From Leifsonia shinshuensis (GTDB taxonomy: Bacteria; Actinomycetota; Actinomycetes; Actinomycetales; Microbacteriaceae), in contig NZ_JAVDVK010000001.1 in the NCBI RefSeq assembly GCF_031456835.1, positions 744,001-808,000 of the forward strand: DNA of 64,000 nucleotides, given 5' to 3'. This document shows positions 23,688 to 32,768 of the stretch, piece after piece (positions within the stretch are counted from its first letter, which is position 1; each line of letters opens with the position of its first letter). The notes beneath the pieces were generated by a model. The model did no database searches, was not told where the DNA came from, and saw only the letters and a list, made by a program, of their open reading frames with translations. The position numbers and the translations under genes are program-made.

Positions 23688-24614
23688 ATGTTCGCATCGA
23701 AGAAGAGCCGCCTCGCGGCCGGCGTGCTCGCCGCCGGGGCGCTGCTCGCCCTCAGCGCCTGCTCCTCCGGGGGCGGCGCGTTCAGCACCGGTTCCGCCTC
23801 GTCGTCCAGTGACACCGTCACGGTCGGCTCCGCCGCGTTCGGCGAGTCCGAGATCCTCATGCAGATCTACGGCCAGGCCCTGGCCGCCAACGGCGTGAAG
23901 GTCGCGTACAAGCCGAGCATCGGCCAGCGCGACGTGTACCTGAAGGCGCTGCAGGACGGCTCCATCGACCTCATCCCGGAGTACAGCGGCAACCTGCTGC
24001 AGTTCTACGACAAGAACAGCACCGCGACCTCCAGCGACGACGTCTACGCCGCCCTGAACGACGCCCTGCCCAAGGGCTACGAGGTGCTCGACCAGTCGGA
24101 GGCCCAGGACGCCGACTCGTACAACGTCACCAAGGAGTTCTCGGAGAAGTGGGGTGTCACGAGCCTCGACGACCTGAAGAAGGTCACCGACCCGCTCACG
24201 GTCGGCGCGAATCCTGAGTTCGGGACGCGGCCCTACGGCATCCCGGGGCTGAAGTCGGCCTACGGCGTCACCGCGACGCTCAAGCCGATCAGCGACTCGG
24301 GCGGCCCGCTGACCGTCGCCGCGCTGAAGAACGGCGACGTGCAGCTCGCCGACATCTACACGACCACGCCGGCCATCAAGGACAACGGCTTCGTGACTCT
24401 GAAGGACCCGAAGAACCTGATCGCGGCCCAGAACATCGTGCCGCTGATCAACAGCTCGAAGGCGTCGGACAAGGTCAAGGACGTCCTGGACAAGGTCTCC
24501 AAGGAGCTCACCACCTCCGACCTGATCGACCTGAACGGCGAGAACCAGGGCTCCAGCAAGACGCAGCCCGACGTGCTCGCCAAGAAGTGGCTGCAGGACC
24601 ACCCGATCAAGTAG
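23688..24614 (+). CDS. Osmoprotectant-binding lipoprotein (OpuCC/OsmF-like)
   Basis: Protein of 308 residues. The signal ends in lipobox LSAC (Cys near 25), so it is tethered outside the membrane. The mature part follows the OpuAC fold: TVGSAAFGESEILMQIYGQAL, then DGSIDLIPEYSGNLLQFY, a block conserved in glycine betaine/choline binders. A GAGAAGA ribosome site precedes the ATG. It completes the ABC importer encoded by the three upstream genes. The exact ligand (betaine, choline, carnitine, proline) cannot be read from sequence. Confidence 0.9.
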   Translation: MFASKKSRLAAGVLAAGALLALSACSSGGGAFSTGSASSSSDTVTVGSAAFGESEILMQIYGQALAANGVKVAYKPSIGQRDVYLKALQDGSIDLIPEYSGNLLQFYDKNSTATSSDDVYAALNDALPKGYEVLDQSEAQDADSYNVTKEFSEKWGVTSLDDLKKVTDPLTVGANPEFGTRPYGIPGLKSAYGVTATLKPISDSGGPLTVAALKNGDVQLADIYTTTPAIKDNGFVTLKDPKNLIAAQNIVPLINSSKASDKVKDVLDKVSKELTTSDLIDLNGENQGSSKTQPDVLAKKWLQDHPIK

Positions 24615-25299
24615 CCGAGGGCTCTTCGGTCTCATCGAGCGGCGGTCCGGGTTCCCGGGCCGCCGCTTCCATGTGCTTGGCCTCGCGGGCGGACAGCACC
24701 TTCTTGACGACGAAGACCGCCACCAGGAACACGGCGATCACCGCCACGAACACGTAGCCGGCGCCATGGAGCTCGCGCGACAGCTCGCGATAGCTCCCCG
24801 CCGCCGCGGAACCCACACTGACGTAGGCGAACGCCCACAGCACGCACGCGGGCGCCGTCCATGCGAGGAACGTGCGGTACCGCATCGGGCTCATCCCGAC
24901 GGTCAGCGGGATGAGCGAGTGCAGCACCGGCAGGAACCGCGAGAGGAACACCGCGATGCCGCCGCGCCGCGCGAGGTAGGCCTCGGCGCGGTCGAAGTTG
25001 CGCACGCCGACCCGCCGGCCGAGCGCGCTGACCCGGATGCGCGGCCCGAACCAGCGCCCGAGGGCGAAGCCGATCGACTCCCCGCACAGCGCGCCGACGA
25101 TCACGGCGGCGACGAGGGCCGCGTACTCCGCGGGCCCGTCGACGCCCGTGGCGGCCACCAGCACGATGGTGTCGCCGGGAACGATCAGCCCGACCAGGAT
25201 GGACGTCTCGAACAGGATGCCGAGCCCGGCGAGCAGTGTCCGCAGCACCGGGTCGACGCCCTGCACCAGGTCGAGCACCCACGTCAGTGCATCGTTCAT
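24607..25299 (-). CDS. DedA family membrane protein
   Basis: Protein of 230 residues with the DedA/VTT pattern: an N-terminal helix with ETSILVGLIVPGDT, the conserved FLSRFLPVLHSLIPLTVGM segment around residues 120-140, and two C-terminal membrane helices. DedA proteins scramble or flip lipid carriers such as undecaprenyl phosphate and support envelope integrity. The last 27 residues are charged and acidic. Its stop overlaps the end of the convergent binding-protein gene by 8 bp, so no terminator can lie between them. A TACGCT -10 is visible at 25329-25334. Confidence 0.9.
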   Translation of the reverse strand: MNDALTWVLDLVQGVDPVLRTLLAGLGILFETSILVGLIVPGDTIVLVAATGVDGPAEYAALVAAVIVGALCGESIGFALGRWFGPRIRVSALGRRVGVRNFDRAEAYLARRGGIAVFLSRFLPVLHSLIPLTVGMSPMRYRTFLAWTAPACVLWAFAYVSVGSAAAGSYRELSRELHGAGYVFVAVIAVFLVAVFVVKKVLSAREAKHMEAAAREPGPPLDETEEPSAT

Positions 25300-25584: not shown

Positions 25585-26541
25585 TCAGCTCAGCAGGATC
25601 ACGAGGGGCGGCACCACGACGAGCAGCACCGTCGCGACGACCACGGCCGCGCGGAGCAGCGGGCCGACGGTGCGCCGGCCGTCCGTGAGGCGCTCCTCGC
25701 GCGCGACGAGGGCGGCGCGCCGCTGCTCGGGCGTGCGCCGGTCTTTGGGGGCGCCGAGGGCGGCGCCGGCGGGGCCGGTGGCGTCCACGAGGCGGATCGC
25801 CTCGGCGAGCACCGCATCCCCGGAGGTGCGGCGCGCCGTGTCGTCGGCGAGCATCTCGATCAGCAGGGCGACCGCGTCCTGCGCCCGGGTGGCGATCGGG
25901 AACCAGGGGAGGGAGCGCTTCCAGGAGCGGAACGCGTCCAGCAGCAGGTGGTGCTTCTGCCGCAGGTGGGCGCGCTCGTGCGCGACCACGGCATCCAGCT
26001 CGGCGGGGGAGAGCAGCTCGATCATGCCCTCGGACAGCACGGTCACGCTGCGTGCCCCGGGCAGGCAGTAGGCAGCGGGCGCGGGATGGTCGATCACGCG
26101 TGTGCTCGGAACGTCGGGCAGCGGGGAGGAGAGCAGGCGCAGCAGCTCCATGTGGCGGTGCCGCTGGTTGCGGCTCCGCACCGAGGTGAGCGCGAGATTG
26201 AGCACGAGGTGTGCGGTGAGAAGGACGGCCGCGCTCAGCAGGAACGCGTTCAGGAGGCTGACCTCGGGCGGCAGCGGACCGTGGAAGAGCGAGGCCCACG
26301 CTCCGCCGATGCGGCTCCACAGGTCGTCGCCGAACGGCTCGAGTCCCGCGAGCAGCAGCGAGCCGATCATGGAGATGCCCCCGGCGAGGGCGATCGACTG
26401 CCAGAGCGCCAGGGCGAGCGTCGGCGCGGCGGACGGCCACTTCGCCCGGGCGAGGAGCAGCGGCACGGGCCACGCCAGCGCGACGGCCAGCGCGCCCAGG
26501 AAGATCGCGCCGGCGAGCGGCGCGGCCGGGTCGGTGCTCAC
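25585..26541 (-). CDS. M56 family metallopeptidase, BlaR-like without sensor domain
   Basis: Integral membrane protein of 318 residues. The gluzincin motif is VVAHERAHLRQKH with HERAH at residues 188-192. Membrane helices lie before it (about 10-35, 42-65, 95-120), and a final helix closes the protein. BlaR1/MecR1 are nearly 600 residues because they carry an extracellular penicillin-binding sensor; that domain is absent here, as in the Rv1845c type of mycobacteria. Its start overlaps the BlaI stop (ATGA), so it is probably the protease that inactivates BlaI. The inducing signal is unknown. Confidence 0.88.
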   Translation of the reverse strand: MSTDPAAPLAGAIFLGALAVALAWPVPLLLARAKWPSAAPTLALALWQSIALAGGISMIGSLLLAGLEPFGDDLWSRIGGAWASLFHGPLPPEVSLLNAFLLSAAVLLTAHLVLNLALTSVRSRNQRHRHMELLRLLSSPLPDVPSTRVIDHPAPAAYCLPGARSVTVLSEGMIELLSPAELDAVVAHERAHLRQKHHLLLDAFRSWKRSLPWFPIATRAQDAVALLIEMLADDTARRTSGDAVLAEAIRLVDATGPAGAALGAPKDRRTPEQRRAALVAREERLTDGRRTVGPLLRAAVVVATVLLVVVPPLVILLS

Positions 26542-26906
26542 ACGCTGCGGTCGGCGAGGAGGCGGCGCAGCACCTCGGCCTCGGACTCGTCGACCGAGCC
26601 GACGAAGTAGGCGAGCGCCTCGGTGCGGTCGGAGGACGACTCCAGCACTTCGCGCATCAGGTCGGCGACGTGCCCGGCGCGGGACAGCGCGGCGTAATAG
26701 AGGTGCGGGCGGGCGTCACGGTCGCGCCCGACGAACCCTTTCGCCTCGAGACGGGAGAGCACGGTGAGGACCGTGGTCAGCGCCGGTGCCTTTCCGGTCT
26801 CGCGCGCCGTCGCTAGCCTGTCGCGGAGGTCGCCTGCGCTGAGGGGGGCGTCGCCGTCCCAGAGGGCGTCCATCACCGCCCGTTCGAGTTCACCCAGATT
26901 GGCCAC
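26538..26906 (-). CDS. blaI: BlaI/MecI family transcriptional repressor
   Basis: Protein of 122 residues with an N-terminal winged helix (LGELERAVMDALWDGDAPLS, then TTVLTVLSRLEAKGFV as the recognition part) and a C-terminal dimerisation helix pair. I chose the GTG at 26906 because it gives the family N-terminus and lies 6 nt after a TACCCT -10. It overlaps the M56 gene and is divergent from cydA. Two TACA/TGTA-type dyads lie in the gap, one over its -35 region, so autorepression and repression of cydABDC are both likely. Confidence 0.92.
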   Translation of the reverse strand: MANLGELERAVMDALWDGDAPLSAGDLRDRLATARETGKAPALTTVLTVLSRLEAKGFVGRDRDARPHLYYAALSRAGHVADLMREVLESSSDRTEALAYFVGSVDESEAEVLRRLLADRSV

Positions 26907-26912
26907 GTATCC

Positions 26913-26918
26913 AGGGTA
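26913..26918 (-). promoter_or_regulatory. -10 box of blaI (leaderless)
   Basis: TACCCT on the minus strand ends 6 nt before the GTG at 26906. The upstream dyad begins 20 bp further, over the expected -35 position. Confidence 0.6.
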
Positions 26919-26937
26919 GCGCGAACCGGCTGAGAAT

Positions 26938-26956
26938 GTTCTACACTCTGTAGAAG
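26938..26956. promoter_or_regulatory. BlaI-type operator 1
   Basis: The core TTCTACACTCTGTAGAA (26939-26955) is a perfect 7-3-7 dyad containing TACA-N3-TGTA, the hallmark of BlaI/MecI sites. It is centred at 26947 between blaI and cydA. Confidence 0.8.
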
Positions 26957-26961
26957 TAGAA

Positions 26962-26980
26962 GTTCTACGTTGTGTAGAAC
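26962..26980. promoter_or_regulatory. BlaI-type operator 2
   Basis: GTTCTAC-N5-GTAGAAC is a perfect 7-5-7 dyad centred at 26971, 24 bp from operator 1. It lies immediately before the cydA ribosome site, so a bound repressor would block cydA transcription. Confidence 0.8.
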
Positions 26981-26996
26981 AGTCGGAGGGATGCAC

Positions 26997-28409
26997 GTGA
27001 ACGAACTGCTGGACCCGCTCCTGCTGTCGCGCTGGCAGTTCGGGCTCACCACGATCTACCACTTCCTCTTCGTGCCGCTGACCATCGGTCTGGTCACCTG
27101 CACCGCCGTCTTCCAGACCGCCTGGTACCGCACCGGCAAGCCGCACTACCTGCAGCTGACGCATTTCTTCGGCAAGATCTTCCTGATCAACTTCGCCATG
27201 GGCGTCGTGACCGGCATCGTGCAGGAGTTCCAGTTCGGCATGAACTGGTCGAACTACTCCCGCTTCGTCGGCGACATCTTCGGCGCACCGCTCGCGCTGG
27301 AGGGCCTGCTCGCGTTCTTCCTGGAGGCGACGTTCATCGGCCTCTGGATCTTCGGCTGGGACCGTCTGCCGAAGGGTCTGCACCTCGCCACGATCTGGGT
27401 CGTCTCGGTGGGTAGCATCCTGTCCGCGTACTTCATCCTCGCGGCGAACGCCTTCATGCAGAACCCGGTGGGCTACCACCTGAACCCCGCCAAAGGACGC
27501 GCCGAGCTCACGGACCTGTGGGCGGTGCTCACCAACAAGGTGGCGCTGGCCGCGTTCCCGCACACGATCTTCGGCTGCTTCATGGTGTCGGCCGGCCTGA
27601 TCATCGCGGTGGCCGCCTGGCACCTGTCGCGCAACCGGCACCTCGACACGATGCGTCCCGCCCTGAAGTTCGGCCTGTGGCTGATGGTCGGCGCCGGCAT
27701 CGGCACCGTCCTCAGCGGCGACCAGCTGGGCCTCGCCATGGTCGAGACGCAGCCGATGAAGATGGCGGCCGCGGAGGCGCTCTACAAGACCTCGACCGGC
27801 GCGGACGCATCCTTCTCGATCTTCACTCTCGGCACACCGGACGGCGTGCACGAGCTGTTCTCCATCCGCATCCCGTACCTGTTGTCGTTCCTGTCGACGC
27901 ACAGCCTGAACGGCACCGTCGAGGGCATCAACGACCTGCAGGCGCAGTACACCCAGCTCTACGGCCCTGGCGACTACACGCCGGTCATCTGGGTCACCTA
28001 CTGGGCCTTCCGCTGGATGATCGGGCTCGGGATGCTGCACGTCCTGATCGCGGTGGTCGGCCTCTGGCTGACGCGGAAGGGCCGCACCCCACCCCGCGCG
28101 TGGATGTGGAAGATCGCGATCTGGGCGATGCCGCTCTCGCTGCTGGCGATGGTCGTCGGCTGGATCTTCACCGAGATGGGCCGCCAGCCCTGGATCGTGT
28201 TCAGCCTGATGAAGACCGCCGACGGCGTCTCGCCCGGCACGACGGGCGTCGAAGTGCTGATCTCGCTGATCGCGTTCACCGCCGTCTACGGCACCCTCGC
28301 CGTCGTCGAGTTCCTGCTCATCAAGCGGGCGGCGCAGAAGGGCCCGCAGGACATCGACCAGCATCTCGACGAGGCCGGCGAGCCCATCCCGGTCGCGACG
28401 GTCTACTAG
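26997..28409 (+). CDS. cydA: Cytochrome bd ubiquinol/menaquinol oxidase subunit I
   Basis: Protein of 470 residues, about nine membrane helices. His22 (TTIYHFLFVPL) is the expected heme b595 ligand; a second conserved His is in AAFPHTIFG, and GWIFTEMGRQPW marks the heme b558/quinol region. The Q-loop is short. I prefer the GTG at 26997, 6 nt after GGAGGG; the ATG at 26991 touches that ribosome site. The product reduces oxygen to water with high affinity. It is the first gene of cydABDC and lies directly downstream of two BlaI-type operators. Confidence 0.95.
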   Translation: MNELLDPLLLSRWQFGLTTIYHFLFVPLTIGLVTCTAVFQTAWYRTGKPHYLQLTHFFGKIFLINFAMGVVTGIVQEFQFGMNWSNYSRFVGDIFGAPLALEGLLAFFLEATFIGLWIFGWDRLPKGLHLATIWVVSVGSILSAYFILAANAFMQNPVGYHLNPAKGRAELTDLWAVLTNKVALAAFPHTIFGCFMVSAGLIIAVAAWHLSRNRHLDTMRPALKFGLWLMVGAGIGTVLSGDQLGLAMVETQPMKMAAAEALYKTSTGADASFSIFTLGTPDGVHELFSIRIPYLLSFLSTHSLNGTVEGINDLQAQYTQLYGPGDYTPVIWVTYWAFRWMIGLGMLHVLIAVVGLWLTRKGRTPPRAWMWKIAIWAMPLSLLAMVVGWIFTEMGRQPWIVFSLMKTADGVSPGTTGVEVLISLIAFTAVYGTLAVVEFLLIKRAAQKGPQDIDQHLDEAGEPIPVATVY

Positions 28410-28422
28410 GAGGAGCAGGGCA

Positions 28423-29454
28423 ATGGATCTCGCAGTTCTCTGGTTCGGAATCGTCGCGTTCTTTTTCGTCGGCTACTTCGTGCTCGACGGCTTCGACTTC
28501 GGCGTCGGGATGGCGCTGCCGTTCCTCGGCCGCGACGACGTCGACCGCCGCGTGATGATCAACACCATCGGCCCGGTGTGGGACCTCAACGAGACGTGGG
28601 TCATCGTGGGCGGCGCCGCGCTCTTCGCGGCCTTCCCGGAGTGGTACGCCACGCTGTTCAGCGGCTTCTACCTGGCGCTCCTGCTCATCCTGCTCGCGCT
28701 CATCGTGCGCGGCGTGTCGTTCGAGTACCGGCACCAGCGCGCCGGGGCCCGCTGGAAGCGGTGGTTCGACGGGATGATCGTGGTCGGCTCCGCGCTTCCC
28801 GCCTTCCTGTGGGGCGTCGCGTTCGCGAACATCGTCCAGGGTGTCGCCCTCGACGCGCACCACGACTACACGGGGACGTTCTTCGACCTGCTCAACGGCT
28901 ACGCGCTGCTCGGCGGGCTGACGACGCTGCTGCTGTTCTTCACCCACGGCGCCGTGTTCCTGTCGCTGAAGACCGACGGCGACCTGCGCCGGAGGGCGCG
29001 CCGCCTGGCCACCGTGTCCGGCGCCCTGGCGGTGGTCGTGGCCGCGACCTTCCTCGGCTGGACCGCGGTGACGCACTTCTCACCGGTGTTCCTGGCCCTC
29101 GCGCTCTTCGCGGCGATCGCGCTCGTCGCATCCTGGATCGCGAACCTGCGTGGCGCCGAGGGCTGGTCGTTCGGCTTCATGGCGGCGACCATCGCCCTCG
29201 CAGTTGTGTCGTTGTTCGCGGCGCTCTTCCCGGACGTGATGCCGTCGTCGCCGAACCCGCAGAACAGCCTCACCATCGCGAACGCGTCGAGCTCCGCCAC
29301 GACGCTGTCGATCATGACCTGGGTGGCGGCGATCTTCCTTCCGCTGATCCTCGTGTACCAGGCCTGGACGTATTGGATCTTCCGCAAGCGGGTGACGCAC
29401 GACCACATCCCGCAGGAGCCGGCCGAGCCCGTCGTCCCCACCGTGACGGTCTGA
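28423..29454 (+). CDS. cydB: Cytochrome bd oxidase subunit II
   Basis: Membrane protein of 343 residues, the usual CydB size, with about eight helices. The N-terminal FVGYFVLDGFDFGVGMALPFLG and the following GPVWDLNETWVIVGG are the conserved opening. AGGAGG lies 8 nt before the ATG, 13 bp after cydA. It forms the oxidase heterodimer with CydA. Its stop is directly followed by the cydD start. Confidence 0.95.
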   Translation: MDLAVLWFGIVAFFFVGYFVLDGFDFGVGMALPFLGRDDVDRRVMINTIGPVWDLNETWVIVGGAALFAAFPEWYATLFSGFYLALLLILLALIVRGVSFEYRHQRAGARWKRWFDGMIVVGSALPAFLWGVAFANIVQGVALDAHHDYTGTFFDLLNGYALLGGLTTLLLFFTHGAVFLSLKTDGDLRRRARRLATVSGALAVVVAATFLGWTAVTHFSPVFLALALFAAIALVASWIANLRGAEGWSFGFMAATIALAVVSLFAALFPDVMPSSPNPQNSLTIANASSSATTLSIMTWVAAIFLPLILVYQAWTYWIFRKRVTHDHIPQEPAEPVVPTVTV

Positions 29455-29455
29455 C

Positions 29456-31105
29456 GTGCGCCCGCTCGACCCGCGCCTGCTCCGCTACGCGTCCGCCACG
29501 CGCGGCACGCTGGCGGCCGGCGCCGTGCTCGCGGCGCTGCAGACCGCATCCATCGTCGCGTTCGCGTGGCTGGTGACGGACGTGATCGTCCGCGCGATCG
29601 CGGGGGAGCGGCTGCCGGAGCTGAGCGGGACGCTCGTGCTGCTCGGCGTCGTCATCGCCGTCCGCGCGGTGCTGCTCTGGGCCGTCGACGCAGTGGCGTC
29701 GCGCGGCGGGGCGCGCGCGGTCGGGCAGCTGCGCGAGCGGCTGGTCACGGCCGTCGGGAGGCTGGGACCGGGATGGACCTCCCGCCGCACCAGTGCCGAC
29801 GTCACCCTGGTCGCGGGCCGGGGCATGGAGGCGCTCGACGGCTACTTCGCGAAGTACCTGCCGCAGCTGATCGGCACCGCGGTCGCGACCCCGCTGCTCG
29901 TGGTGACGATCGGGTGGCGGGATGTGACCAGCGCGATCGTCCTGCTGGTGACGCTCCCGCTCATCCCGGTCTTCATGGTGCTGGTGGGATGGGCGACGCA
30001 GGCGGCGCAGCAGCGTCAGTGGACGGCGCTGTCGCGTCTGTCGAGCGGGTTCCTCGACGTCGTCGCGGGGCTGCCCACCCTCAAGCTGTTCGGGCGCCAG
30101 CACCGTCAGGAGGCGCGCATCCGGGAGGTGAGCGAGCAGTACCGCGTGCACACCATGCGGGTGCTGCGGATGTCGTTCCTCTCGGGATTCGTGCTGGAGC
30201 TGGCGGCCAGCCTGTCGGTCGCGGTGATCGCGGTGACGATCGGACTGCGGCTGCTGGGCGGTTCCCTCGACCTCTCGGTGGGGCTGTTCGTGCTGCTGCT
30301 GGCGCCGGAGGCATTCCTGCCGCTGCGCAACGTCGGCGCGTCGTACCACGCGGCCGCGGAGGGGATCGAGGCGGCGGCGCGGGCGTTCGCGGTGATCGAG
30401 GAGGCGGAGGCGGTGGATGGCGCCGCGCAGCAGGAGGGCACCAGCCGCGTGGCCTCGGAAACGAGCGGACTGGTGTTCGAGGACGTGACCGTCGCCTACG
30501 ACGGCCGGACCGCGGTCGACGGGTTCTCCGCGACGGCGCTGCCCGGCGAGCTGACGGTGCTGCGGGCCCCGAGCGGCGCCGGGAAGTCGACGCTGCTCGC
30601 GGCGGCACTCGGATTCGTCGCGTTCGAGGGCAACATCGTCGCCGATGGGCGCGTGGATGCCGGGGGACGGCGCGAGGCGCTCGCCTGGGCCGGTCAGCGT
30701 CCCGGGCTCCTCGCTGGAACGATCGCAGAGAACGTCGCACTCGGGGAGGAGCACCCGGACGCCGAGCTCGTGGCCCGCGTGCTCCACGAGGCCGCCGCGG
30801 ACGAGCTCGACCCGGAGACCGTGGTCGGCGCGGGCGGCAGCGGGATGTCGGGCGGGCAGGCGCAGCGGGTGGCAGTCGCCCGCGCGCTGTACCGCCTGCG
30901 GTCGCGGGGCTGCCGCATCCTGGTGCTCGACGAGCCGACGTCCGCCCTCGACGCCCGGACCGAGGAGCGGCTGGTCGCGGGCCTGCGGCGGATCGCCGCG
31001 GAGGGCGTCGCCGTGCTCGTGGTCAGCCACCGCGAGGCGGTCGCCTCGGCCGCCGGCCGAGTGATCACACTGGAGGCACGTCAGGAGGTGGCCCATGTCG
31101 GCTGA
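29456..31105 (+). CDS. cydD: Heterodimeric ABC transporter CydD (cytochrome bd assembly)
   Basis: Half-transporter of 549 residues: six membrane helices (about 20-310) then a nucleotide-binding domain. Walker A reads APSGAGKSTLL (Ala replaces the first Gly), the signature is MSGGQAQRVAVARALY and Walker B is ILVLDEPTSALD. With CydC it affects cysteine/glutathione or heme handling needed to mature cytochrome bd. The GTG start is one base after the cydB stop. It overlaps cydC by 11 bp. Confidence 0.93.
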   Translation: MRPLDPRLLRYASATRGTLAAGAVLAALQTASIVAFAWLVTDVIVRAIAGERLPELSGTLVLLGVVIAVRAVLLWAVDAVASRGGARAVGQLRERLVTAVGRLGPGWTSRRTSADVTLVAGRGMEALDGYFAKYLPQLIGTAVATPLLVVTIGWRDVTSAIVLLVTLPLIPVFMVLVGWATQAAQQRQWTALSRLSSGFLDVVAGLPTLKLFGRQHRQEARIREVSEQYRVHTMRVLRMSFLSGFVLELAASLSVAVIAVTIGLRLLGGSLDLSVGLFVLLLAPEAFLPLRNVGASYHAAAEGIEAAARAFAVIEEAEAVDGAAQQEGTSRVASETSGLVFEDVTVAYDGRTAVDGFSATALPGELTVLRAPSGAGKSTLLAAALGFVAFEGNIVADGRVDAGGRREALAWAGQRPGLLAGTIAENVALGEEHPDAELVARVLHEAAADELDPETVVGAGGSGMSGGQAQRVAVARALYRLRSRGCRILVLDEPTSALDARTEERLVAGLRRIAAEGVAVLVVSHREAVASAAGRVITLEARQEVAHVG

Positions 31106-32768
31106 TCCCGAGGTCCGTCGCATCCTCCGGCTGGCACTGCCGCCCGCGAGGCGGTTGTGGGCCGCCATCGCCCTCGGCGTGCTGAGCGGCGGAAGCGCCG
31201 TCGCCCTGCTGGGCGTGTCCGCGTGGCTGATCACCCGCGCGTCGGAGCAGCCGGCGCTGATGTACCTCTCGCTGGCCATCGTGGGCGTGCGCGCCTTCGC
31301 GCTCGGCCGCGCCTTCTTCCGGTACCTCGAGCGGCTGTCCGGCCACGACGCGGCCTTCCGGCAGCTGGGCACGGTCCGCGCCCGCCTCTACCGCCGGCTC
31401 GAGCCGCTGGCTCCGGACGGGCTGCGGGGCATTCGTTCGGGCGACCTGCTCACGCGGCTGGCGGACGACGTGGATGAGCTGCAGAACCTGTCGCTGCGGG
31501 TCGTCCAGCCGCTGGTCACCGCGGGCATCGTCGTCGCGGGCAGCGTCGTCGTCACCGCGCTGGTGCTCCCGGGCGCGGCCGTCGTGCTGACCGTGGCTCT
31601 GGCGGGCGCGCTGGCGGCCGGGGTGCTGGTGAACCGGTGGGCGACCGGCACGGCCGAGCGCCGGATCGCCCCGCTGCGGGCGGCGCTGAACGACGCGCTC
31701 CACGACCTGGTGAGCAACCTGGACGTCCTGACAGCGTTCGGAGCGCTCGCGGGCGCGCAGGAGCGCGTCCGGGCGGCGAGCGAGAGGCTGACGTCCGTCG
31801 CACGCCGCCGTGCGGTCGGCCTGGGTGTCACGGCCGGCGCCGTCTCGCTGTTCGCCGGTGCGGCCACGCTCGGCGCCCTGGTGGTCGGCGTCCCCGCTCT
31901 CGCCGCGGGGATGGACGCGCCCTCGCTCACGGTGATCGCCCTGCTGCCGCTCGCGGTCTTCGAGGTCTTCGGGGCCGTTCCGCTCGCTCTGGGAGCCTGG
32001 CGTCGTGTCCGCACGAGCGCCGAGCGGATCGCGACGACGGCTCCGGTGGATGTGCCGGACGGCATCCCCGTGGATGCGCGGGACGCCGCATCCTTCGCCG
32101 GTCCCGGCGTGCCCGAGGTGCGGCTGGACGGGCTGTCGGCGCACTGGCCCGGTGAGCACACGCCGGTGCTGCGCGACCTGACGCTCCGGCTGGCGCCGGG
32201 GGAGCGGGTGCTGCTCACCGGTCCCACCGGTGCGGGAAAGACGGCGCTCGCGCACGTCCTCACCCGGCTGCTCGACCACGACGGCGGCTACCTGCTGGCC
32301 GGCCGGGAGACGCGGGGCCTGCGGCAGGACGACGTGCGCCAGGCGGTCGGCCTGGTGGAGCAGCGGCCGCACCTGTTCGACGCGGACATCCGCCAGAACC
32401 TGCTCTTCGCCCGCGACACCGCGAGCGACGACGAGTTGCTCGGCGTGCTGGACCGGGTCGGGCTGCGCGAGTGGGTGCTCGAACGCGGCGGGCTCTCCGC
32501 GCCCGTCGGCGAGCGCGGCGCCCTGGTCTCGGGCGGGCAGGCTCAGCGGATCGCGCTCGCGCGGGCGCTGCTCGCCGACTTCCCGGTGCTCATCGTCGAC
32601 GAGCCGACCGCCAACGTGGATGCCGCGGTCGCGGATCGGATCGTCCGCGATGTGCTGACCACCGCAGCGGAGGACGAACGCACCGTGCTGCTCATCTCGC
32701 ACACCGAGGTGCCCGGCGAGCTGATCGACCGCAGCCTCCGGATGGAGGACGGGCGGCTGGTCGCCTGA
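31095..32768 (+). CDS. cydC: Heterodimeric ABC transporter CydC (cytochrome bd assembly)
   Basis: Half-transporter of 557 residues with an N-terminal six-helix domain and a C-terminal ATPase: Walker A GPTGAGKTALA, signature VSGGQAQRIALARALL, Walker B VLIVDEPTANVD. The ATG lies inside the end of cydD, which couples their translation. It completes the cydABDC operon and converges on the class IV aminotransferase gene 25 bp away without an evident hairpin. Confidence 0.93.
   Translation: MSADPEVRRILRLALPPARRLWAAIALGVLSGGSAVALLGVSAWLITRASEQPALMYLSLAIVGVRAFALGRAFFRYLERLSGHDAAFRQLGTVRARLYRRLEPLAPDGLRGIRSGDLLTRLADDVDELQNLSLRVVQPLVTAGIVVAGSVVVTALVLPGAAVVLTVALAGALAAGVLVNRWATGTAERRIAPLRAALNDALHDLVSNLDVLTAFGALAGAQERVRAASERLTSVARRRAVGLGVTAGAVSLFAGAATLGALVVGVPALAAGMDAPSLTVIALLPLAVFEVFGAVPLALGAWRRVRTSAERIATTAPVDVPDGIPVDARDAASFAGPGVPEVRLDGLSAHWPGEHTPVLRDLTLRLAPGERVLLTGPTGAGKTALAHVLTRLLDHDGGYLLAGRETRGLRQDDVRQAVGLVEQRPHLFDADIRQNLLFARDTASDDELLGVLDRVGLREWVLERGGLSAPVGERGALVSGGQAQRIALARALLADFPVLIVDEPTANVDAAVADRIVRDVLTTAAEDERTVLLISHTEVPGELIDRSLRMEDGRLVA

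Follow-up and report, generated by a model that had tools for sequence, protein, structure and literature searches.

Introduction

The BlaI family of repressors is best known for switching penicillin resistance. Here we describe a member of this family from Leifsonia shinshuensis. It is encoded in a stretch of 64,000 nucleotides of contig NZ_JAVDVK010000001.1 (positions 744,001 to 808,000, assembly GCF_031456835.1), which we call the window. The genome (G000, one contig, 3.79 Mb) carries blaI and a membrane metalloprotease gene, m56, on the minus strand, divergent from the cytochrome bd operon cydABDC on the plus strand. Our analysis makes it probable that blaI itself, the M56 protease gene and cydABDC are all repressed by BlaI through two dyads in the blaI-cydA gap; the sensor-less M56 protein would lift this repression on a signal that is probably energy-related.

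The locus resembles the staphylococcal BlaI/MecI and BlaR1/MecR1 systems. In both, a PF03965 repressor stands beside a membrane metalloprotease with an HEXXH...E signature, and there are dyad operators. However, the Leifsonia protease lacks the penicillin-binding sensor, and the targets are cydABDC and pta-ackA. The operator arms also differ, being TTCTAC/GTAGAA with 5 (or 6) bases between them. Relative to the BlaI/M56 kind, the new targets and the absence of a penicillin sensor are what is new in the sequences read here.

The regulon of Mycobacterium tuberculosis BlaI was reportedly studied by Sala et al. in 2009, and its targets may overlap with those described below. This protein (Rv1846c) is the nearest solved relative and has energy genes among its targets. 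More precisely, the accessible parts of two papers report that it reaches bioenergetic genes, namely the atp operon (PMC5874750, PMC12565901). However, the targets named in those parts are atp, blaC, sigC and ftsQ, not cyd.

CopY belongs to the same repressor superfamily, and its NCBIfam model matches the Leifsonia BlaI weakly (24.8 bits, cut-off 121.95). Unlike CopY, this BlaI contains no cysteine, so the C-terminal metal motif of CopY type is absent; the operator spacing is different and a protease partner is present. The CopY operator is printed as TACANNTGTA in the accessible part of its source (PMC7253601), and the conserved core here is one base wider. The lack of cysteine and the weak match led us to reject a copper (CopY) reading of this protein.

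Likewise, cytochrome bd transcription is regulated in another actinobacterium. In Streptomyces, Rex controls cydABCD, according to the accessible part of PMC5355995. Rex is of another protein family with another site, and the Leifsonia gap holds no such site. A literature search, in which few subscription journals were covered, returned no report of BlaI controlling cytochrome bd.

Operators in the blaI-cydA gap

The original prediction described two perfect dyads (7-3-7 and 7-5-7) with centres 24 bp apart, and both are read directly in the sequence (Table 1). It took TACA/TGTA as the unit of the dyads. The conserved unit is instead a 17-bp core common to both, TTCTAC-N5-GTAGAA (sometimes N6).

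In the window, the two gap operators are the sole core matches at 0-1 mismatch. At up to 3 mismatches there are 15 matches, against a shuffle mean of 2.18 and a shuffle maximum of 6; all of the additional 13 differ from the core at 2-3 positions. The whole genome contains 3 exact core sites, compared with 0 for the reversed-pattern control. These counts, together with the shuffled and reversed controls in the gaps of relatives, rule out chance palindromes.

Conservation in Microbacteriaceae

We searched 199 Microbacteriaceae genomes. BlaI had a match in 113, cydA in 153, and the exact motif occurred in 85. At least 68 genomes have adjacent blaI and cydA among the matches listed, and the divergent gap was actually read in 76. 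With 10 named Leifsonia contigs, some perhaps from the same strains, 86 gaps were read in total.

Conservation of the dyads in relatives with the same gene order was set beforehand as the test of direct action of BlaI on cydABDC through paired operators. A TTCTAC-type site (at most one mismatch) is present in 74 of the 76 Microbacteriaceae gaps, which supports this claim of the original prediction as far as sequence comparison can. In the remaining two genomes BlaI belongs to a different clade and the gap site differs correspondingly, reading TACTAC-N5-GTAGTA. Over the 86 gaps, 84 contain at least one site with no more than one mismatch and 80 an exact one, mostly with two or three sites per gap. 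The total is 203 sites; shuffled gaps gave 0.04 on average, and the reversed pattern gave 0. The spacer of the exact sites has 5 bases in 156 cases and 6 in 21.

The 400 bp upstream of cydA in 24 BlaI-less genomes contain no site even at two mismatches. These 24 belong to a set of about 50 genomes with cydA and no BlaI (hand count), in none of which an exact site occurs anywhere. Two genomes have blaI distant from cydA, yet their cydA genes keep the sites: two exact and one with one mismatch in G072, and three exact in G135. Each of their blaI genes has its own one-mismatch site. Across the 199 genomes, motif and BlaI occur together in 83, the motif alone in 2, BlaI alone in 30 and neither in 84 (Fisher p 2e-27, a value that is too small because the genomes are related, although the direction is plain). 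A dyad operator at its own promoter, a trait of the BlaI family, is also present and conserved. The comparison strongly supports the identity of the TTCTAC dyads as operators of the adjoining BlaI.

Further families and two kinds of cyd operon

A class-wide sample of 148 genomes includes at least 21 outside Microbacteriaceae in which blaI and cydA are divergent and less than 500 bp apart. Among the matches listed, these pairs belong to five families (f2, f20, f22, f29 and f31). At least 3 more f20 genomes show distances of 620-870 bp. Twenty of the gaps outside Microbacteriaceae were read. Sites are of the TTCTAC type in f2 and f20, and of the TACTAC type, often with a GTCGTAG half, in f22, f29 and f31.

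The CydA proteins of the first 30 family loci fall into two kinds, with 75-94% (own excluded) or 43-49% identity to the window CydA. Divergence extends across the complete operon in four loci of the second kind: 43-45% for CydB, 35-40% for CydD and 33-49% for CydC (the last over 99 residues only). BlaI identity is 57-66% in both kinds outside Leifsonia. CydA of the first kind (64-85% identical) is also found without BlaI. Because two diverged operons carry the same BlaI and operators, the repressor-operator unit has been joined to at least two cyd operons, perhaps through replacement or transfer. Judged by the gaps read, a BlaI operator code is conserved at cytochrome bd in several actinobacterial families, which is broader than the original prediction described.

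Promoter geometry

Gaps beside the first kind of CydA are called type I and those beside the second kind type II. Of 43 type-I gaps, 37 have a TANNNT hexamer whose end is exactly 6 nt from the blaI start codon. An exact operator is present in 39 type-I gaps; the first one starts 30-32 nt from the blaI start in 36 of these, and in 29 of them a TANNNT begins at its position +3 on the cydA strand. Neighbouring operators keep a distance of 23-25 bp in 36 of 45 type-I intervals. The geometry is weaker in type II, where the blaI hexamer stands at 6 nt in 9 of 41 gaps. A leaderless blaI transcript is suggested, because the hexamer stands 6 nt before the start codon.

In the window, the -10-like TACCCT of blaI (26918-26913, minus strand) is also 6 nt before the start, which would place the -35 at the edge of dyad 1. 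The expectation that a dyad covers the -35 of blaI therefore stands roughly as to position; the sigma-70 consensus scan of the gap found no promoter. The second dyad does abut the cydA ribosome site, with 4 bp between its end and GGAGG. The simplest picture that this arrangement suggests is that BlaI would cover both putative divergent promoters.

The BlaI protein and its clades

BlaI matches PF03965 (Penicillinase_R) with 72.8 bits (cut-off 22.6) over residues 4-118 of 122, and it is the single PF03965 match in the whole genome. By sequence, the nearest solved relative is the PDB entry 2g9w (E 2e-14), which we take to be Rv1846c. F101 is invariant in 103 of 103 sequences and may correspond, by number and context, to F102 of S. 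aureus BlaI, which is cleaved at N101/F102 (accessible part of PMC9834060).

A second BlaI clade has TACTAC-type sites. It comprises families f22, f29 and f31 and members of the Microbacteriaceae genus g7. More precisely, BlaI of G089 and G006 groups with f31 and f22 in the tree, and the gap site is TACTAC-N5-GTAGTA. In G152, also of g7, BlaI is of the usual kind and the TTCTAC sites have one mismatch. The tree has 120 columns with many weak forks, and its cydA-type labels outside Microbacteriaceae were left unused because the pieces were short. Between the two sets of BlaI (86 and 17 sequences) there are almost consistent differences at residues 47, 51 and 54, and also at 67-68. Residues 47, 51 and 54 are likely in the recognition helix, with a predicted role in operator specificity. 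By alignment, the recognition-helix letters of M. tuberculosis BlaI resemble those of the TACTAC clade.

Small-genome Microbacteriaceae (L171-L174, from G059, G128, G181 and G083) have a diverged BlaI with TTCTAC operators. The gene divergent from this blaI at L174 encodes a PCu(A)C copper chaperone. Likewise, L275-L277 have a site upstream of a gene weakly similar to PCu(A)C (34-35%). A copper link to oxidase assembly is possible for this diverged BlaI.

The M56 protease

The protease matches PF01435 with 40.2 bits, above the cut-off, and PF05569 (BlaR1 peptidase M56) with 21.5 bits, below the cut-off of 31. Its catalytic residues, HEXXH at 188-192 (H188, E189, H192) and E229, are invariant in 31 homologues. 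The spacing from HEXXH to this glutamate is 41, the same as H201-E242 of BlaR1. A PDB sequence search gave 0 matches. The best structural match of its predicted model is BlaR1, and the alignment covers BlaR1 residues 3-293 only. The Pfam scan of its 318 residues found no penicillin-binding sensor, and the model closes with a helix at 294-317.

Other operator sites and the wider regulon

Two of the three exact genome sites are those at blaI-cydA. The third (contig position 3538932) is 24 bp upstream of a DUF1254/DUF1214 gene (L224:3973-5331; G000 contig 1, about 3538970-3540330), which is followed by pta and ackA. In 22 Leifsonia genomes with a non-cyd site read, the site precedes the DUF1254 gene in 19, and pta lies behind this gene in all 19 but L103, whose piece ends there. 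The site is 270 bp before pta in G201, and at neither gene in G202 and G203. Most of the Leifsonia genomes read have this DUF1254/DUF1214 gene between the operator and pta-ackA, and its product may function in acetate or energy metabolism.

In other genera, exact sites are found upstream of atpB, pta, ctaC, flavohemoprotein, NarK-like transporter and pyrophosphatase genes, and in some Leifsonia upstream of a cox1 gene and a PPK2 gene. Target identities come from family models for one or two examples each (NarK below the cut-off) and from similarity for the others. At the PPK2 polyphosphate kinase gene of L101 and L106, two operators abut (17 bp apart); the spacing at cydA is 23-25 bp. A listed energy gene lies within 400 bp at 45 of 69 non-cyd loci with an exact site, 3 of them by the 34-35% PCu(A)C match only. 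This proportion is a description and not an unbiased enrichment, because the query genes were picked from these loci and site-rich genomes were preferred.

No exact genome site is at a beta-lactamase or a resistance penicillin-binding protein gene. The one-mismatch genome sites seen (L004-L008) are not at beta-lactamases either, judged by reading alone. One of them (L004:1501-1517; G000 contig 1, 381872) is just upstream of a cation-diffusion-transporter-like gene.

Some further sites are recorded here for themselves. L131 and L134 (G148, G001) have an exact site before a membrane protein gene that matches neither Pfam nor NCBIfam, and the two share their context. At L232-L234 (G176, G122 and G052, one genus), exact sites are near genes that read as nucleoside-hydrolase-like and adenosine-deaminase-like. 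The two sites of L235 and L236 (G053) are the centre of a far longer palindrome (GAACATTTTCTAC...GTAGAAAATGTTC); they are probably another type of element, not BlaI operators.

Locus layout

Table 1. Coordinates of genes and regulatory elements of the blaI-cyd locus, numbered from the first letter of the window.
Feature	Position	Strand	Details
M56/M48-type membrane metalloprotease gene (m56), putative anti-repressor	25585..26541	-	318 aa; overlaps blaI 3' end by 4 bp
blaI, BlaI/MecI-type winged-helix repressor	26538..26906	-	122 aa; GTG start at 26906; PF03965
-10-like TACCCT of blaI	26913..26918	-	6 nt upstream of start codon; putative leaderless transcript
Operator 1, TTCTACACTCTGTAGAA	26939..26955	.	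dyad TTCTACA-CTC-TGTAGAA, 7-3-7, centre 26947; position and sequence conserved
Putative -10-like TACACT of cydA, within operator 1	26942..26947	+	half fixed by the operator sequence itself
Operator 2, TTCTACGTTGTGTAGAA	26963..26979	.	dyad 26962-26980, GTTCTAC-GTTGT-GTAGAAC, 7-5-7, centre 26971
GGAGG ribosome-binding site of cydA	26985..26989	+	read from sequence
cydA, cytochrome bd subunit I	26997..28409	+	PF01654, 549.7 bits
cydB, cytochrome bd subunit II	28423..29454	+	PF02322, 363.7 bits
cydD-like ABC transporter subunit	29456..31105	+	PF00664 and PF00005
cydC-like ABC transporter subunit	31095..32768	+	PF00664 and PF00005

The start of cydA is probably GTG 26997. ATG 26991 is in frame and is disfavoured because it is too near GGAGG. 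From their position, we take the two ABC transporter genes to be cydD and cydC. A gene for a VTT-domain (DedA-like) membrane protein (24607-25299, minus strand) lies about 285 bp downstream of m56.

Discussion

We propose that BlaI dimers on both operators would block the divergent blaI-m56 and cydABDC promoters. The M56 protease, which seems to resemble the catalytic portion of BlaR1, probably removes BlaI by cleavage or in some other way. Its trigger may be the condition of the respiratory chain or of the membrane, as family knowledge and the regulon suggest. On removal of BlaI, cytochrome bd would be switched on together with the acetate pathway DUF1254-pta-ackA. The signal is more plausibly the respiratory or energy state than cell-wall damage, because the targets are cytochrome bd and acetate genes and, in relatives, aa3 oxidase, ATP synthase, nitric oxide (NO) dioxygenase and polyphosphate kinase. 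The link to envelope stress in the original prediction found no support, with an M56 protein that lacks the penicillin-binding sensor and no exact genome site before a beta-lactamase.

Several observations weigh against this proposal. Thirty of the 113 genomes with BlaI have no exact site, although some have one-mismatch or TACTAC sites. G097 has a close BlaI, but its cydA lacks a site. G159 also has a close BlaI, with no cydA match among the matches listed. The cydA of G166 has one one-mismatch site about 145 bp upstream and the diverged BlaI is elsewhere; in G024, with a diverged BlaI elsewhere, there is no site. G005 and G061 carry an exact site but lack a BlaI match and, among the matches listed, a cydA match as well. 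Finally, 24 of the 69 non-cyd loci have no listed energy gene (a 27% match at L189 is counted as a miss). Some of these 24 are to be expected by chance, because reversed-pattern sites occur at about 0.4 per genome.

A classical beta-lactam or envelope-stress circuit could include cytochrome bd by happenstance. Membership in the BlaI/MecI family fits this idea, and both blaC and the atp operon are reported to be under BlaI repression in mycobacteria (accessible part of PMC12565901). However, M56 stops at residue 318 and has no penicillin-binding domain, and its model fits only the BlaR1 segment noted above. The exact genome sites are at cyd and pta, and the one-mismatch sites seen read as lying away from beta-lactamases. 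We consider this circuit unlikely.

BlaI-type repressors commonly regulate their own operon, so the dyads might serve blaI-m56 alone, with cydABDC just a neighbour. Operator 1 is at the blaI promoter, and G097 and G159, which retain blaI-m56 without an adjoining cydA, have degenerate sites. Nevertheless, operator 2 is at the cydA ribosome site, and the remaining exact genome site is found at pta rather than at blaI. The cydA genes of G072 and G135 keep sites with blaI elsewhere. In addition, the gene pair and its sites persist in 76 genomes, two cyd types and five more families. Taken together, these points make self-control alone a poor explanation.

A different regulator, such as Rex or a CRP-type protein, might use the dyads, as Rex controls cytochrome bd in Streptomyces avermitilis (accessible part of PMC5355995). 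This is very improbable. The Rex-type site TTGTG-N6-CACAA is unmatched in the gap at up to 3 mismatches, as the original prediction had noticed, and the motif tracks BlaI in its presence and the BlaI clade in its sequence.

RNA hairpins or terminators have a negligible probability, despite one terminator-like match (26980-26962, minus strand), because the arms keep their letters, and not merely their pairing, in 156 exact sites with the 5-base spacer, where a hairpin would permit compensatory change; the tail is also not a T run, and sites occur at unrelated promoters.

It is about an even proposition that BlaI and a sensor-less M56 protein form a widespread actinobacterial energy switch (bd, pta-ackA, aa3, ATP synthase, NO detoxification and polyphosphate), in which the protease would sense the respiratory chain or membrane and free these genes from BlaI, and of which beta-lactam control would be a special branch there. 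Cytochrome bd lets actinobacteria survive respiratory inhibitors and low oxygen, so its control is of practical interest. If BlaI and its sensor-less protease do control it, an antibiotic-resistance family would turn out to regulate respiration, with a defined operator, one gene pair and a target list. This would also give a frame for the puzzling report, seen in the accessible parts of PMC5874750 and PMC12565901, that the operon for ATP synthase is under BlaI control in mycobacteria.
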